Shown one piece after another: positions 762 to 48,771 of a stretch of 58,860 nucleotides of DNA. Each line of letters starts with the position of its first letter. Within the stretch, counting starts at the first letter, position 1. The notes beneath the pieces were generated by a model. The model had not been told where the DNA came from, searched no databases, and was given only the letters and a program-made list of their open reading frames with translations. This stretch comes from a virus, in IMG/VR virus record IMGVR_UViG_3300023181_000032, positions 1-58,860 of that record. One strand, 5' to 3'. Both the position numbers and the translations under genes were made by a program.

Positions 762-1865
762 TCAGGCCGCGGGAATGGCGTCGTGAAACACATCCATCTG
801 CGCGGCGCCGTCCAGCCAGGCAGCGTCAATACGCGCTCTGGCCATCGCCGCATAATCCGGATTCAGCTCGCAAATGATCGACCTCCGCCCTTCCTGCATC
901 GAAACGAGCGATGTGGTACCGGCACCTCCGAACGGGTCGAGCACAATGCTGCCGCGCGGTGCGCCCGCCAAAATGCAGGGGCGGATAAGGTCAGGCGGGA
1001 AGGTGGCGAAGTGGGCGCCCTTGAATCCTTGAGTCGGCACAGTCCAGACGCTTCGCTTGTTGCGGGTGGCAACATCCCACTCGCTTTCAGCTCTGTCAGG
1101 CCGGTGTGTACCCTTCGACTGCCCGGGAATGGCCTGCTCACGCTTTGAGTCGTCACGCTGGAAGCTGTCACGTTTTGAGCGCCCGCCGCCAACCGCTTTC
1201 ATCATCCCGTTCGTTTTGCCGGGCACGCGGTCGCTGCCGACCTGGCCTTCAACATCCTGAGCCCATCGAGCGAGGCTTGATTCGGCGGCCGGCTCGCGGA
1301 TGGCTTGCATATCACAGTGGTAGCTTCGGGACTTGCTGAGCAGGAAAATGTATTCGTGGGCTTTCGTACAGCGGTCGCGCGTAGATTCGGGCATCGGGTT
1401 TGGCTTGTTCCAGATGATGTCCTGACGCAAATACCAGCCGTCGTCCTGCAGGGCGAACGCGAGGCGCCAAGGCATGCCCATCAGGTCTTTGTGCTTCAGC
1501 CCCGCAGGCGCAGAACGCCAGCCTGTCGCTTCGCCCTTGCCCTGCCATGCCCCGTCGCCGCGCTCCGCCATGAATGAGCCTCCACCGCCGCGACCTCCGG
1601 AAGCATATGTGTCACCCATGTTTACCCAGACCGTGCCGTCGTCGCGGAGTACTCGACGCACTTCGCGGAAGACGGCCACCAATCGGCCGATGAATTTGGC
1701 GGGAGTTTCTTCGAGGCCGATCTGGCCTTCTACGCCATAGTCGCGCAGCCCAAAGTAGGGCGGACTAGTCACGCAGGTGTGAACTGACTTATCCGGTAGC
1801 GTCCGCATCATTTCGATGCAGTCGCCGACCAGTATCTGGTGAAGCTGGCTCATGCAGTTCTCCAT
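762..1865 (-). CDS. Site-specific DNA methyltransferase (beta class, N4-C or N6-A)
   Basis: 367 residues. The catalytic motif TSPPY is near residues 33-37 and the AdoMet-binding motif DPFGGAGTT near residue 310. Catalytic motif before cofactor motif is the beta-class order. TSPPY occurs in N4-cytosine and in some N6-adenine enzymes, so the base is not decided by sequence. The middle of the protein (about 190-270) is polar and probably forms the target-recognition region. There is no restriction partner nearby, so it is an orphan phage methylase that may protect against host restriction. An ATG at codon 5, with GGAG just ahead of it, could be the true start. Confidence 0.92.
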   Translation of the reverse strand: MENCMSQLHQILVGDCIEMMRTLPDKSVHTCVTSPPYFGLRDYGVEGQIGLEETPAKFIGRLVAVFREVRRVLRDDGTVWVNMGDTYASGGRGGGGSFMAERGDGAWQGKGEATGWRSAPAGLKHKDLMGMPWRLAFALQDDGWYLRQDIIWNKPNPMPESTRDRCTKAHEYIFLLSKSRSYHCDMQAIREPAAESSLARWAQDVEGQVGSDRVPGKTNGMMKAVGGGRSKRDSFQRDDSKREQAIPGQSKGTHRPDRAESEWDVATRNKRSVWTVPTQGFKGAHFATFPPDLIRPCILAGAPRGSIVLDPFGGAGTTSLVSMQEGRRSIICELNPDYAAMARARIDAAWLDGAAQMDVFHDAIPAA

Positions 1866-39935: not shown

Positions 39936-41873
39936 ATGGCATACGGCGATCTGATCGGCGACCTGAGTCAGGCATACATGACAAACGCCCAGCGCGCGGC
40001 AAAAAATGGCGTTCAGTCTTTGACAGGCGGGCCCATTGCGCGCGCATCGGCGGCGGTGCCAGTGGCGGGCGGTCTGGCTGGCGCCGCGATGCTGCCGCAA
40101 CAACAGCAAGCGGCTCAGCCGGCAGGGCTGGCTACAGCACTTACCAATCCGACGCAGTTTTCAAGGCCGCCACAGCCATCAGGGCCAGCCTCGCTTGAGT
40201 CGGCTAGACCGGTGGGGGTGATTCCCACTGCGAATTCGCCTACCTACCCGACAACCGCTCAGGTTGAAGGGCCGAAGACGCTGGCTGACCTATCCCAAAC
40301 CATCAGTGCGCCGCAGACAGTTGGAGCTCCGGGAATTCAGCCGCCGGCCGATTTGGCATCTGCGGGCAACGGAATCTCGCTGAGTACTCTGCCCCCACCG
40401 GTGGCGAACGCAACCCCAATCAACGACACGCGCAGCCTCGACTCGGCATACCGCCAAACTGGTATCGGTTCTGGCACAAATCAAATAGCAGGGAGAGTGG
40501 GGGCGGACGGCGTACCGGAATTCACGAACGCGCCGGCAGATTTACGGTCGGCTGGTGGATTGCCTCCGATCAACACTATGGCAACGCCTGCTGCGCAGAG
40601 CCTGTCTGATGCCTACCGCAGCGATGCGCCATCGTCTGGTCCGCAGTTCGCCGCACTGGGCAGCGCCGCAAACCTCGGCGACGGCGTCGGCAGCTTCAGT
40701 CAATCGCAGGCCGGCGATTCTCAGCTGGCGCTGACCCGATTCCAGCGTGCAATCGACCTTCGTGATGCCTACAAGGCTCAAGACCGGCTGGGTCAGGCAC
40801 AAGGAGCCCAGTACATCGCTAACAACACGAACATCGTGCACGACAGCAGCAAGCCGTATACCCGCGATGACAAAGAGCGCGACCTAGCCACAGCTTTCGG
40901 AAGGCAGCGCGCAGACGCTAACGTGGCAGGGCGGCAGCAGTCGCTTGAAGACCTGCGTACCGGACAGGTGGCAGCGGCGCAAACGCGGCAAACGCAGCGT
41001 CTGGAGGATGTCATGACGGCGGCGCAGTCGCCTACAGCAACGCCCGATCAGCTTGCCGCCGCAAGGCGCATCACTGATCCAGACGGTACGAAAGGCGCCA
41101 CTCTTCAGTTAACGCAGGCGAAAACGGCAGAAGCCAATGCGGCGGCGCAGAAGTCCACTGCGGAGGCGACCGGCACTGCGCCGGAGGTTGCGCAGAAAGT
41201 AGAAGCGGCAAAGAACAAGGCAGAGATTGACCGCCTTGAAATTGAGCGCCGTAAAAGTGAGCTGAAAGGCACGGCGCCAGGGGCGGACCTGAAAAAGGCC
41301 GAAGCAGAGAACAAGGCCGAACTGGACAGGCTGGAAATTGAGCGCAGGAAGACAGTGGCTGCGCAAACTGCCAAAGACATCGCCGACAAGAAGTCGGGTG
41401 CGATTGATATTGCGAAAGAGGCGAGGGATCTGGCTATCGGAATTGCGAAGGACGACAGATTTGGCGACATCACTGGACCTATCAACTCCCGGCTTCCGAC
41501 CACCAATCAGGGATCGCAAGATCTTATCAATAGAGCGAACCGGCTTCAGTCTCTTCTTACCTTGGAAAATCTTCCAAAGATGTCTGGAGTTTTAACTGAT
41601 AAGGATATTGAGTTCTTAGCGCGCATCGGGTCTGGGCTTAACGTCACCGAGGGCGGGATTATGGGTGGCGAGGAAGGCACCAAGAAACGCATCAATGACA
41701 TCGCTACGAATCTGAGTAAGAAAATCACCGATTACGAGAAAGCGAATCCTGCGAAGCCAGTCGCCGCCGCGCCCGCAGCCCAGCCGGGCGCGCCAGCAGT
41801 AGGCGCGATTGAGGACGGCCATGTATTCCTCGGTGGCGATCCTTCAAGCCCGTCCTCATGGAGGGCTCAGTAA
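39936..41873 (+). CDS. Probable ejection (internal virion) protein 1
   Basis: 645 residues. The N-terminus has a glycine/alanine-rich hydrophobic segment (AVPVAGGLAGAAML). A long P, A, Q, T-rich disordered stretch follows, then helices of about 300-480 with ELDRLEIERRK repeats. The last 150 residues carry a compact helical part (RLQSLLTLENLPKMSGVLTDKDIEFLARIG). Large, A/Q-rich helical proteins at this location correspond to the P22 gp7/gp20/gp16 group that leaves the capsid with DNA. Function by position and composition. Confidence 0.65.
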   Translation: MAYGDLIGDLSQAYMTNAQRAAKNGVQSLTGGPIARASAAVPVAGGLAGAAMLPQQQQAAQPAGLATALTNPTQFSRPPQPSGPASLESARPVGVIPTANSPTYPTTAQVEGPKTLADLSQTISAPQTVGAPGIQPPADLASAGNGISLSTLPPPVANATPINDTRSLDSAYRQTGIGSGTNQIAGRVGADGVPEFTNAPADLRSAGGLPPINTMATPAAQSLSDAYRSDAPSSGPQFAALGSAANLGDGVGSFSQSQAGDSQLALTRFQRAIDLRDAYKAQDRLGQAQGAQYIANNTNIVHDSSKPYTRDDKERDLATAFGRQRADANVAGRQQSLEDLRTGQVAAAQTRQTQRLEDVMTAAQSPTATPDQLAAARRITDPDGTKGATLQLTQAKTAEANAAAQKSTAEATGTAPEVAQKVEAAKNKAEIDRLEIERRKSELKGTAPGADLKKAEAENKAELDRLEIERRKTVAAQTAKDIADKKSGAIDIAKEARDLAIGIAKDDRFGDITGPINSRLPTTNQGSQDLINRANRLQSLLTLENLPKMSGVLTDKDIEFLARIGSGLNVTEGGIMGGEEGTKKRINDIATNLSKKITDYEKANPAKPVAAAPAAQPGAPAVGAIEDGHVFLGGDPSSPSSWRAQ

Positions 41874-45589: not shown

Positions 45590-45751
45590 ATGGCAGAAGA
45601 GAAGAAAGTCGTAGGTGTTCGCCTACTGGCACTCATGCAAGAAAACCTAGCTAAAAAAGCGAAGCAAAACGGTCGCAGCCTCAGCGGCGAGATTGTATTT
45701 CGTTTGCGCAAGTCTCTGGAGCAAGAAGATGGGCAGATCAAGCAGGCATGA
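45590..45751 (+). CDS. Arc-like ribbon-helix-helix repressor
   Basis: 53 residues, the same length as P22 Arc. A strand VVGVRLLALMQENLAKKAKQ and two helices (NGRSLSGEIVFRLRKSL) are characteristic of the fold. GGAG lies 9 bases ahead of the ATG. It is first in the antirepressor operon, so as in P22 it probably damps antirepressor expression late in infection. Confidence 0.82.
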   Translation: MAEEKKVVGVRLLALMQENLAKKAKQNGRSLSGEIVFRLRKSLEQEDGQIKQA

Positions 45752-45753
45752 AA

Positions 45754-45783
45754 AAGCCCCAAGCGCTGTAACGCAAGGGGCTT
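45754..45783 (+). other. Hairpin between arc-like and antirepressor genes
   Basis: AAGCCCC and GGGGCTT with an inner GCG/CGC pairing lie just after the Arc-like stop codon. No T run follows, so it is at most a weak attenuator. In P22 the same interval encodes the antisense RNA sar; I see no clear leftward promoter here to claim one. Confidence 0.5.
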
Positions 45784-45818
45784 CAGGTAACGTAGTCAAC
45801 TATCAGGAAAACGACGTC

Positions 45819-46694
45819 ATGCAAAATTCTAGCACAGCTTTGACACCTGAAAATATACCGGCAATCTCACACGCCGGTCGGCCAGTCGTGACCACTGCTT
45901 TGCTGGCAAGGCTGTACGGTACCGATGACAACAATCTTATTAAGAACTTCCAACGCAACGCTGGTCGATTCGTCGCTGGCAAGCACTTCCACAAGCTGGA
46001 AGGCGCGGCTTTAAAGGCTCTTAAGGACTACATGACTGATAGTCAGGTAGTCCAAATATCGAAAAACACCCGTCAAATGATCCTTTGGACGGAGCGCGGT
46101 GCTGCTCGCCACGCCAAGATGCTGGATACCGAACAAGCCTGGGAAATGTTCGAAAAACTCGAAGATAGCTATTTCGGTAAATCGCCCGTTCTTGCTATTG
46201 AGCATAAGCCTGAAGCTCTAACACCAGCCCATCAGCGCCACATTCTTAACCGCGTTGCTGAACTGGCGGGAATGGACCGTAAAAAATATCCGGTCGTCTG
46301 GCGCGGTATCAAAGATCATTTCAAGGTCGGCAGTTACAAAGACATCCCTGATAGCCAGTATCCTGCGGTCTGCGAGTTCATGCTTTGCAAGCCAATAGAC
46401 GTTGCTGTGCCGACAGCTCGCATCATCGAGCAGGCGCACGGAATTTATCTTGATCAGCATGAAACGCATTGTCTCTACCTGCTGATGTCGCGATTTTGGA
46501 CGATGCATCAGCACAAACTGAACATGCTGAACGCTGCCAGAGCGCTAGGCTCTGACTCCCTGATGAGCATGTTTGATCAGCTGCATGACGGGCATATTTC
46601 GTTTGCTGCTCTTGATAAACGGCGCGAAGAACTTTATGCCGCCTACACTTCTACCGGCTGCCAGGGCGGGTATGCATCGAGGAAATCCGCATGA
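45819..46694 (+). CDS. Phage antirepressor (ORF6N and ORF6C domains)
   Basis: 291 residues from the ATG at 45819, with AGGAAAA upstream. The N-terminal ORF6N domain (GRPVVTTALLARLYGTDDNNLIKNFQRNAGRFVAGKHF...QIILWTERGAARHA-like) is followed by a C-terminal region with LTPAHQRHILNRVAELAG and KDHFKVGSYKDIP, typical of ORF6C. Such proteins inactivate the prophage repressor. It is in the operon position of P22 ant, under the XRE and Arc-like regulators. It overlaps the RAMP-like gene by 4 bases, so the antirepressor transcript also reads the accessory cassette. Confidence 0.88.
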   Translation: MQNSSTALTPENIPAISHAGRPVVTTALLARLYGTDDNNLIKNFQRNAGRFVAGKHFHKLEGAALKALKDYMTDSQVVQISKNTRQMILWTERGAARHAKMLDTEQAWEMFEKLEDSYFGKSPVLAIEHKPEALTPAHQRHILNRVAELAGMDRKKYPVVWRGIKDHFKVGSYKDIPDSQYPAVCEFMLCKPIDVAVPTARIIEQAHGIYLDQHETHCLYLLMSRFWTMHQHKLNMLNAARALGSDSLMSMFDQLHDGHISFAALDKRREELYAAYTSTGCQGGYASRKSA

Positions 46695-47714: not shown

Positions 47715-47723
47715 CCAGCGTAG

Positions 47724-47843
47724 AGCGCATCCGAAGGGGTGCGCTGTGCGGCGCGAAAGCATCATGCGGTGCGGCATGTTTCGGTGGGCTGAGATCCGGC
47801 ATGGCTGGGCCTGGCGTGGCAAGTCATGGGCTGAAAACAGCGT
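47724..47843 (+). ncRNA. RNA-array unit 1 (12 pentamers)
   Basis: A 5' stem-loop (47724-47745, arms AGCGCA/TGCGCT) is followed by a 16-base hairpin with a GAAA loop and 3' arm GCATCA (47749-47764). The pentamer tract runs from 47768 to 47827: 12 words of form GNYNN. The unit closes with GGGCTG-AAAA-CAGC (47828-47841). The second stem has two mismatches here but keeps the same layout as in units 2 and 3. There is no open frame with coding features. It is transcribed rightward if it belongs to the antirepressor operon; no promoter of its own is seen. Confidence 0.68.
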
Positions 47844-48051
47844 TCAGCCACTTCCCCCGAGGTGGCTGAGCGATGTGAAGGCATCGCGGGGCGTGGCAGG
47901 CTTAGGTGCGCTGTGGCGTGGCAAGTCTCGGTCCGGCATGGGCTGATAACAGCGTACTGGGTTTTCTTGCGAGAACCCAGTGCGGTGCGGAAGCATCGTT
48001 TGGTCTGCCATGTTGCGGCGTGATATGCCGGGGCTAGGTACGCTTCGATAT
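47768..48051 (+). repeat. Three phased pentamer tracts, (GNYNN)12, 10 and 10
   Basis: Tracts at 47768-47827, 47890-47939 and 48002-48051. All 32 pentamers have G at position 1 and C or T at position 3 (17 C, 15 T). Position 2 is G 19, C 6, T 4, A 3 times, and positions 4 and 5 are mixed. In each unit the first pentamer starts three bases after the GCATC hairpin and the last abuts GGGCTG. A 13-base block, GGCGTGGCAAGTC, occurs in units 1 and 2 in the same phase but at different pentamer positions (10-12 and 6-8), so rearrangement respects the five-base step. Confidence 0.85.
47844..47955 (+). ncRNA. RNA-array unit 2 (10 pentamers)
   Basis: A 5' stem-loop has arms TCAGCCAC/GTGGCTGA (47844-47869). 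A second hairpin, CGATGT-GAAG-GCATCG (47871-47886), has a six-pair stem including one G-U. The pentamer tract runs 47890-47939 and GGGCTG-ATAA-CAGC (47940-47953) ends the unit. The layout and spacings are the same as in units 1 and 3, although the stem sequences differ, which supports RNA structure rather than shared ancestry of sequence alone. Confidence 0.7.
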
Positions 48052-48065
48052 GGGCTGTAAACAGC
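47956..48065 (+). ncRNA. RNA-array unit 3 (10 pentamers)
   Basis: A 5' stem-loop has arms ACTGGGTT/AACCCAGT (47956-47981). The second hairpin CGGTGC-GGAA-GCATCG (47983-47998) has a six-pair stem with one G-U and a GNRA loop. The pentamer tract runs 48002-48051 and GGGCTG-TAAA-CAGC (48052-48065) ends the unit, running straight into the terminator. This tract has the most varied second position (G, C, T and A all occur). Confidence 0.7.
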
Positions 48066-48100
48066 ACAAAATACCCCGCCTCGGTGGGGGTTTTTTGTGC
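48064..48100 (+). terminator. Terminator of the RNA array
   Basis: GCACAAAA pairs with TTTTGTGC around an inner CCCC-GCCTCGGT-GGGG hairpin, with six T in the 3' arm. It ends the array transcript rightward and, by symmetry, could also stop leftward transcription. It takes the place that a fourth unit's 5' stem-loop would have. Confidence 0.88.
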
Positions 48101-48113
48101 CTGCAATTACCCC

Positions 48114-48138
48114 TTCCTAAGCAGAGCCAGTCACATAC
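48114..48138 (+). promoter_or_regulatory. 25-bp late element, copy 6
   Basis: TTCCTA at 48114, a weak form of the TTG block, then CCAGTCACATAC ending at 48138. It is 14 bases after the array terminator and 28 bases before the tail-fibre genes, separating the accessory cassette from the late genes. Confidence 0.6.
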
Positions 48139-48165
48139 GCTAACTGGAAATCGCAGGAGATTTCC

Positions 48166-48771
48166 ATGGGCGGCAATACTTTCGACATCGAAATTCAGAG
48201 AGGTCGAACTTTTGAGTTTGCGTATCGCCGTGCAGATATGCAGATCAACTACGCGCCTATTTCCGGAATGCCGAGCACGACACCTGTACGGCTGACTGCG
48301 CCAAATCACGGCATCCCGGATGGCTGGCGTGTTGGCGTAGAAAAAGTAATTCGTCCAGAAGAGCTCAACACCTCAAGCGGCGACTATTACATCGCCACAT
48401 TTATCGACGCCAATACCATCGAGCTGAATGGCGTACGAACAGATGACTGGAGGCCATTCGTTACCAGTGGCGCGCTGTACTTCAATCGCCCATTCGACCT
48501 AACCGGTTGCTCGGCGAGAATGCAGGTTAGGCGCACCCTCGACGGGCCAGTCCTGCTTAGCCTCAGCTCTGACCCTCAAGCAGTAAGGGATGGTGAAATC
48601 GAGCTGGATGTATCCCTGTCTTCGATAATTGTCCGTCTGTCCGCAGCAGCTACAGCTGCCATTACCTGGACGCGGGCCGTATACGACATAGAGCTAATCA
48701 CGGCTGAGGGGCATGTTCAGTCCGTTACGCCTGTCAGTGCCGTGTCAATCCTGCCGGAGGTGACACGATGA
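48166..48771 (+). CDS. Tail-fibre-cluster protein (BppU-like N-terminal type)
   Basis: 201 residues, with AGGAG upstream. The opening FDIEIQRGRTFEFAYRRAD and the beta-sandwich pattern (LTAPNHGIPDGWRVGV, FDLTGCSARMQVRRTLDGPVLLSLSSD, ITWTRAVYDIELITAEGHVQSV) match small phage proteins that begin tail-fibre or baseplate-upper clusters. It opens the last late operon. Confidence 0.68.
   Translation: MGGNTFDIEIQRGRTFEFAYRRADMQINYAPISGMPSTTPVRLTAPNHGIPDGWRVGVEKVIRPEELNTSSGDYYIATFIDANTIELNGVRTDDWRPFVTSGALYFNRPFDLTGCSARMQVRRTLDGPVLLSLSSDPQAVRDGEIELDVSLSSIIVRLSAAATAAITWTRAVYDIELITAEGHVQSVTPVSAVSILPEVTR

Follow-up and report, generated by a model that had tools for sequence, protein, structure and literature searches.

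A five-base-phased array in a Pseudomonas-type temperate phage as the probable guide RNAs of a type II VIPR system

The viral DNA analysed here (the window, 58,860 nucleotides) contains an array that almost certainly comprises three VIPR guide RNAs (vrRNAs), probably of type II, in a Pseudomonas-type temperate phage, acting by the steps proposed below. VIPR is a virus-encoded system composed of Vipr, vap and vrRNAs built of GGY/NN repeats (PMC13142463, preprint 2026), of which seven types have been described. GGY is the protein-held scaffold, on which a RAMP protein oligomerises by one GGY/NN repeat per step, while each NN pairs with double-stranded target DNA and one target base is skipped between pairs (PMC13142463). 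The vrRNA repeats, YNNGG (GGY/NN), typically number 9–16, the 3' tail is invariable and structured, and the skip falls at the wobble position (PMC13142463). Type II examples are Escherichia phage SUSP1 and a P. fulva prophage; vrRNA expression, co-purification with Vipr and DNA binding were reported for both, repression assays for SUSP1, and repression of competing phages was demonstrated in E. coli (PMC13142463).

The evidence computed here covers gene homology, the RAMP fold, array anatomy, tail covariation, the one-nucleotide-skip code, targets and self-sparing. The window holds a small RAMP homologue, GGY/NN repeats in tracts of 10–12 words, a structured tail and a likely vap gene, together with one-nucleotide-skip matches in double-stranded DNA and targets in competing phages with the skip placed at the wobble base (loci L177, L192–L194 and L183). 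The principle was already published in 2026 (PMC13142463) and this copy is new; added here are an independent confirmation, a last-word rule and a self-sparing target set.

Anatomy of the array and its adjoining genes

Perfect runs of words with G at the first and C or T at the third position occupy 47768–47827 (12 words), 47890–47939 (10) and 48002–48051 (10), so that, as originally predicted, all 32 words read G-N-Y-N-N. The longest other GNYNN runs in the 58.9-kb window are of 5 words on the plus strand and 6 on the minus strand, nothing comparable being present in its remainder, and when the region itself was shuffled 20,000 times under a first-order Markov model, a 9-word run arose once and a 10-word run never. 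The accompanying claim that positions 2, 4 and 5 vary held for positions 4 and 5 but not for position 2, which is G in 19 of the 32 words (59%) and in 74% of words in relatives. Since position 2 is mostly G, the true consensus is GGY-NN, with letters 4 and 5 as the variable ones.

Each unit consists of a 14-nt 5' hairpin, 4 nt of the form N-Y-N-N, the tract, the invariant tail GGGCTG-NNNN-CAGC and a long hairpin of variable sequence (Table 1). The 14-nt hairpins all end in GCATC and the full words begin 4 nt later, these 4 nt being equivalent to a word minus its first G; the constant spacing between tract and hairpin that had been proposed was thus borne out, although it had been put at 3 nt after a 16-nt hairpin. 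The counterpart of the vrRNA1 hairpin in most relatives is the homologous GGTGCGAAAGCATC, and the GGGCTGNNNNCAGC tail follows every tract. In the last unit a terminator-like hairpin stands in for the long tail hairpin, a layout shared by the relatives. A consensus fold built from the tails of relatives, 27 in number, contains 17 pairs, 11 of them with compensatory changes, which indicates selection on the tail at the RNA level. Compared with shuffles, the array region as a whole folds better by 6 standard deviations; Rfam searches gave no match.

Table 1. Features of the array, its adjoining genes and the phage's own counterparts of the guide targets
Feature	Position	Strand	Basis or remark
Own homologue of vrRNA2 target gene, 645 aa, late region	39936..41873	+	best site near homologous position 15/22
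vipr gene, predicted RAMP-fold RNA-binding protein, 191 aa	46691..47266	+	phmmer, AF2, Foldseek
vap gene (likely vap1), accessory protein, 150 aa	47262..47714	+	position, weak identity
Array-start hairpin, AGCGCATCC/GGGTGCGCT stem	47718..47750	+	sequence, fold
vrRNA1 5' hairpin, GGCGC GAAA GCATC, one C-A mismatch	47750..47763	+	sequence
vrRNA1 guide tract, partial word ATGC + 12 GNYNN words; NN letters GC GC AT TC GG GA CC AT TG CT GT AA (AT)	47764..47827	+	run scan
vrRNA1 3' tail, GGGCTG-AAAA-CAGC hairpin + long variable hairpin	47828..47871	+	consensus fold, 27 relatives
vrRNA2 5' hairpin, GATGTGAAGGCATC	47872..47885	+	sequence, fold
vrRNA2 guide tract, partial word GCGG + 10 GNYNN words; NN letters GG GT AG TA GC GT GT AA TC CC (AT)	47886..47939	+	run scan
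vrRNA2 3' tail hairpins	47940..47983	+	consensus fold
vrRNA3 5' hairpin, GGTGCGGAAGCATC	47984..47997	+	sequence, fold
vrRNA3 guide tract, partial word GTTT + 10 GNYNN words; NN letters TT CT AT GC GT AT GG TA AC TC (AT)	47998..48051	+	run scan
vrRNA3 3' tail hairpin, GGGCTG-TAAA-CAGC	48052..48065	+	sequence
Intrinsic-terminator-like hairpin + T-run, array end, ACAAAATACCCCGCCTCGGTGGGGGTTTTTTGTG	48066..48099	+	sequence, fold
Own vrRNA1-target counterpart, leader of 48166-48771	48110..48165	+	mismatched, 18/26 vs 20-21/26 in rivals
Own homologue of vrRNA3 target gene, phrog_1084	48166..48771	+	best site near homologous position 13/22

The vipr product (phrog_4652) matches PDB entry 36pp, 'SUSP1 Vipr protein', in phmmer (E 3e-47, residues 4–189). 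Its AlphaFold2 model, obtained with 37 homologues, has a pLDDT of 95.9 and a pTM of 0.89, and the top PDB fold matches in Foldseek are the CRISPR RAMPs Csm3, type VII Cas7, Cmr and Cas6 (best E 4e-5). A Pfam search with Vipr returned no family, and PADLOC gave no Cas or defence-system match for Vipr or Vap. Like vap in SUSP1, the second gene overlaps vipr and lies ahead of the array, and its product (phrog_5926) shows about 23–24% identity to the post-vipr gene product of Felix O1/SUSP-like phages; this weak identity and its position make it a likely vap, probably vap1. The gene order of the window, vipr and vap followed downstream by three vrRNAs, is also that of SUSP1, and on the two features compared, similarity and layout, the window Vipr is compatible with type II of SUSP1 and P. 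fulva.

With the vap gene as query, 39 viral loci were recovered, and the same kind of array lies downstream in those displayed. Across 82 distinct related tracts (1,057 words), G occupies position 1 in 98.6% of words and position 2 in 73.9%, C or T occupies position 3 in 98.4%, and positions 4 and 5 are of mixed composition; homologous arrays thus keep G1 and Y3. This sample is partly selected, since the G1/Y3 pattern itself, with tolerance for one deviating word, served to call the tracts; the sequences displayed agree with it by eye. A BLASTN search of phages gave Medea1 as its sole match, a sequenced Pseudomonas syringae phage with one vrRNA and a vipr 82% identical. Scanned blindly for (GNYNN)14, viral contigs yielded at least 120 loci; the vipr query found a homologue in 52 of the 120 listed, in all 52 at no more than 1 kb from the pattern. 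Many of the other loci look like simple tandem repeats, and some are true arrays, such as L127, with a Vipr too divergent to be recovered by a single query. Scanning for the period-5 pattern finds VIPR systems straight from raw DNA.

The intergenic place beside late genes, and the simple tandem repeats among the other blind-scan matches, would suit a DNA-level element (a site for packaging, replication or recombination) or a decayed five-base tandem or coding repeat. We hold such an origin to be extremely improbable, because the words are diverse and not copies, the tract lengths are spread over all residues modulo 3, the hairpins carry compensatory changes of the RNA type, and the vipr neighbourhood is strict in unrelated phages.

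Several retrieved loci differ in layout or guide content. In L049, L055, L060, L127 and L147, long GNYNN arrays lie beside distant Vipr-like genes and no tail hairpins are visible between the tracts; these are perhaps the staggered arrays of PMC13142463. In L146 and L061 the array lies upstream of a Vipr-like gene (start ...GDTPLLMH...), and the hairpins are unlike those of the Pseudomonas clade. The closely related Pseudomonas prophages L011–L013 and L016–L019 differ in entire stretches of guide words and in a two-unit fusion, suggesting rapid guide turnover by recombination.

A one-base-skip code in the Pseudomonas clade

Letters 4 and 5 of 78 tracts were scanned as guides against about 0.6 Mb of phage loci with the arrays masked. 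At a skip of one base, 18 of the 78 tracts found sites with at most 2 mismatches, compared with none of the word-shuffled guides. When the last word was dropped, skip 1 gave sites with 0–1 mismatches for 21 of 76 tracts against 0 of 380 shuffles, and skips 0 and 2 gave no such site for any of the 76. Reversed reading order, or complementing without reversal, gave no matches in the clade scan. Eight perfect matches at skip 3 equal in number the eight tracts missed by masking; they were read as self-matches and rejected as real targets. The skipped base stands at the third codon position of an open frame in all 18 best matches (≤2 mismatches), the wobble-compatible frame ranking first in length in 14 of them and second in the other 4.

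The five-base leader RNAs bound by TRAP are a known parallel: the TRAP ring reads (G/U)AG-N2 repeats, about 11 of them in its leader RNA. A TRAP-like ring reading G-N-Y was our initial idea, under which the tract would be a multivalent protein-binding RNA and letters 4 and 5 a neutral spacer with no target. Both the five-base period with about 11 repeats and the combination of fixed G1/Y3 with varying letters 4 and 5 resemble such an RNA. The idea was abandoned once Vipr had been matched and the targets tested, and we now consider it very unlikely: letters 4 and 5 predict target DNA at a single skip length, far above shuffles, related tracts of 8–29 words (mode 11) imply no fixed ring, and the adjoining protein is a RAMP, not TRAP, just as the triplet is GNY and not (G/U)AG.

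The same scan bears on a CRISPR-type array of contiguous guides for a Class 1 effector, which would account for the RAMP protein and for units made of a hairpin and a variable tract. Its probability is close to nil, given that NN letters read contiguously (skip 0) yield no signal whereas the NN-only code at skip 1 does, that the repeats lie inside the guide rather than between guides, that no contiguous protospacers match whole tracts, and that PADLOC recognised neither protein. Identification as vrRNAs also fits the core of the original prediction, a non-coding tract that a protein or partner RNA reads five bases at a time, with a RAMP oligomer taking one GGY/NN per step. What that prediction missed is the role of letters 4 and 5 as the guide, which pairs with target DNA at a one-base skip, and the presence of the protein gene alongside.

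Target sites are partly dependent, as related guides share targets; among the 22 distinct sites with at most 3 mismatches, 23 of the 46 guide–target mismatches lie in the final word before the tail. The NN of this word is AT in 43 of 78 tracts and in all three of the window, and on these two grounds it is probably part of the tail and not of the guide. Neither this last-word rule nor self-sparing by divergence is described in the main text of PMC13142463. From sequence alone, the scan confirms a guide-RNA code that was proposed only recently, in a phage set gathered without reference to that code.

Some guides in the clade match one another's loci. A guide of L026 matches the vipr gene of L005 (21 of 22 letters) and a guide of L005 matches L026 (20/22); guides of L026 and L023 match each other's loci, and a guide of L033 matches the vipr gene of L164 (19/22). 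A guide of L024 matches L010 at 2963–2991 (19/20), inside a 334-aa frame that by eye resembles the ORF6N antirepressor of the window, a regulator of the lysis–lysogeny type.

Targets of the three guides

Two loci, L177 and L179, were retrieved from viral contigs with a vrRNA3 seed, and in both the vrRNA3 site lies inside the homologue of gene 48166–48771, in codons reading DVYPITAIS. At a one-nucleotide skip and with the last word dropped, vrRNA3 matches L177 4056–4085 in 20 of 20 letters (20/22 with the full guide), and vrRNA2 matches L177 9476–9505 in 19 of 20 (20/22), near the 5' end of the 39936–41873 homologue. For vrRNA1 the L177 site, in the leader directly before the 48166 homologue, agrees in 19 of 24 letters (20/26 with the full guide). 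As L177 had been fetched with vrRNA3, full guides of the other two were compared with word shuffles there: 0 of 2,000 were as good for vrRNA2 and 7 of 2,000 for vrRNA1, whose match is the weaker, some shuffles equalling it. In L192, fetched with vrRNA2, the vrRNA3 site reaches 18/22 (0 of 2,000 shuffles as good) and the vrRNA1 site 19/26; L193 and L194 carry weaker sets of sites.

Exact nine-word seeds of vrRNA1 and vrRNA2 gave no matches in viral contigs, and a relaxed vrRNA2 seed did find matches. Among 400 Pseudomonas genomes per guide, matches with at most 3 mismatches were at chance level (vrRNA2, 3 vs 4 in controls; vrRNA3, 5 vs 2; vrRNA1, 0) except for L183, a prophage in which the same gene as the vrRNA2 target is matched. 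A third vrRNA3 match, L178, is probably due to chance: the gene that holds it is unrelated, and the flanking words on both sides are mismatched.

The phage's own counterparts of the vrRNA1, vrRNA2 and vrRNA3 sites score 18/26, 15/22 and 13/22; set against the L177 matches, this indicates that the guides match the late-gene module of a related lineage while sparing the phage that carries them. The leader targeted by vrRNA1 is conserved in many relatives, and there the contrast between self and non-self is small (18 vs 20–21 of 26). These named guide–target pairs, with their predicted self-sparing, are concrete enough to be tested at the bench. On balance we favour the view that VIPR in the Pseudomonas clade is a reciprocal weapon among relatives with the same locus, in which rivals' late or vipr genes are hit, own sites are mismatched and the last NN is fixed by the tail.

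Proposed working and comparison with known systems

The array would probably be co-transcribed with vipr and vap, ending at the terminator-like hairpin, and the transcript may be cut or processed, as suggested by PMC13142463, to units of about 110 nt, each with 5' hairpin, guide tract and 3' tail. One Vipr subunit would grip each GGY, so that protein and RNA advance in five-base steps, and the two free bases per word would pair with double-stranded target DNA, the skipped base normally being the codon wobble base. The complex would then repress transcription of the bound gene. By analogy with the preprint (PMC13142463), ribonucleoprotein assembly, DNA binding and repression are expected to proceed as in the published examples, and repression of competitors as the presumed biological role is likewise taken from it. 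The phage could in this way interfere with close competitors in a shared host without hitting itself, as suggested by guides that fit a related lineage's late genes and by mismatched own sites.

The window encodes a P22-like portal, a DnaB-like helicase, an integrase and an ORF6N antirepressor, a gene set consistent with a temperate phage that meets its relatives as prophages or co-infecting phages. The antirepressor gene (ORF6N/ORF6C, Rha-type, 45693–46694) lies directly upstream of vipr, as it does in Medea1, and close to the left-hand end of the phage record lies a gene for an N6/N4 DNA methylase (762–1865, minus strand).

With type II VIPR of the SUSP1 and P. fulva clade, the window shares the vipr–vap–vrRNA order, GGY/NN, a structured 3' tail and one-nucleotide-skip targets in competing phages with the skip on the wobble base. 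It differs in that position 2 is G in just 59% of words, that the tail is a 4-bp hairpin followed by a long variable hairpin rather than the pseudoknot of the SUSP1 clade (PMC13142463), and that the targets are late-region genes and one leader in close relatives. Class 1 CRISPR-Cas, with its Csm3/Cas7 backbones, shares the RAMP fold, and in both Class 1 CRISPR-Cas and VIPR the subunits step along the guide RNA and interrupt pairing periodically (PMC13142463); the window, in contrast, has one small RAMP gene, no acquired spacers, a non-contiguous two-of-five code and no nuclease seen. Pseudomonas phage LESphi2, a P. aeruginosa LES prophage (L042), has homologues of vipr (44%) and vap (33%) together with GNYNN tracts that bear GGGCTG tails, its roughly three vrRNA-like units (1441–1920) lying upstream of the vipr homologue, whereas the array of the window lies downstream of vap.
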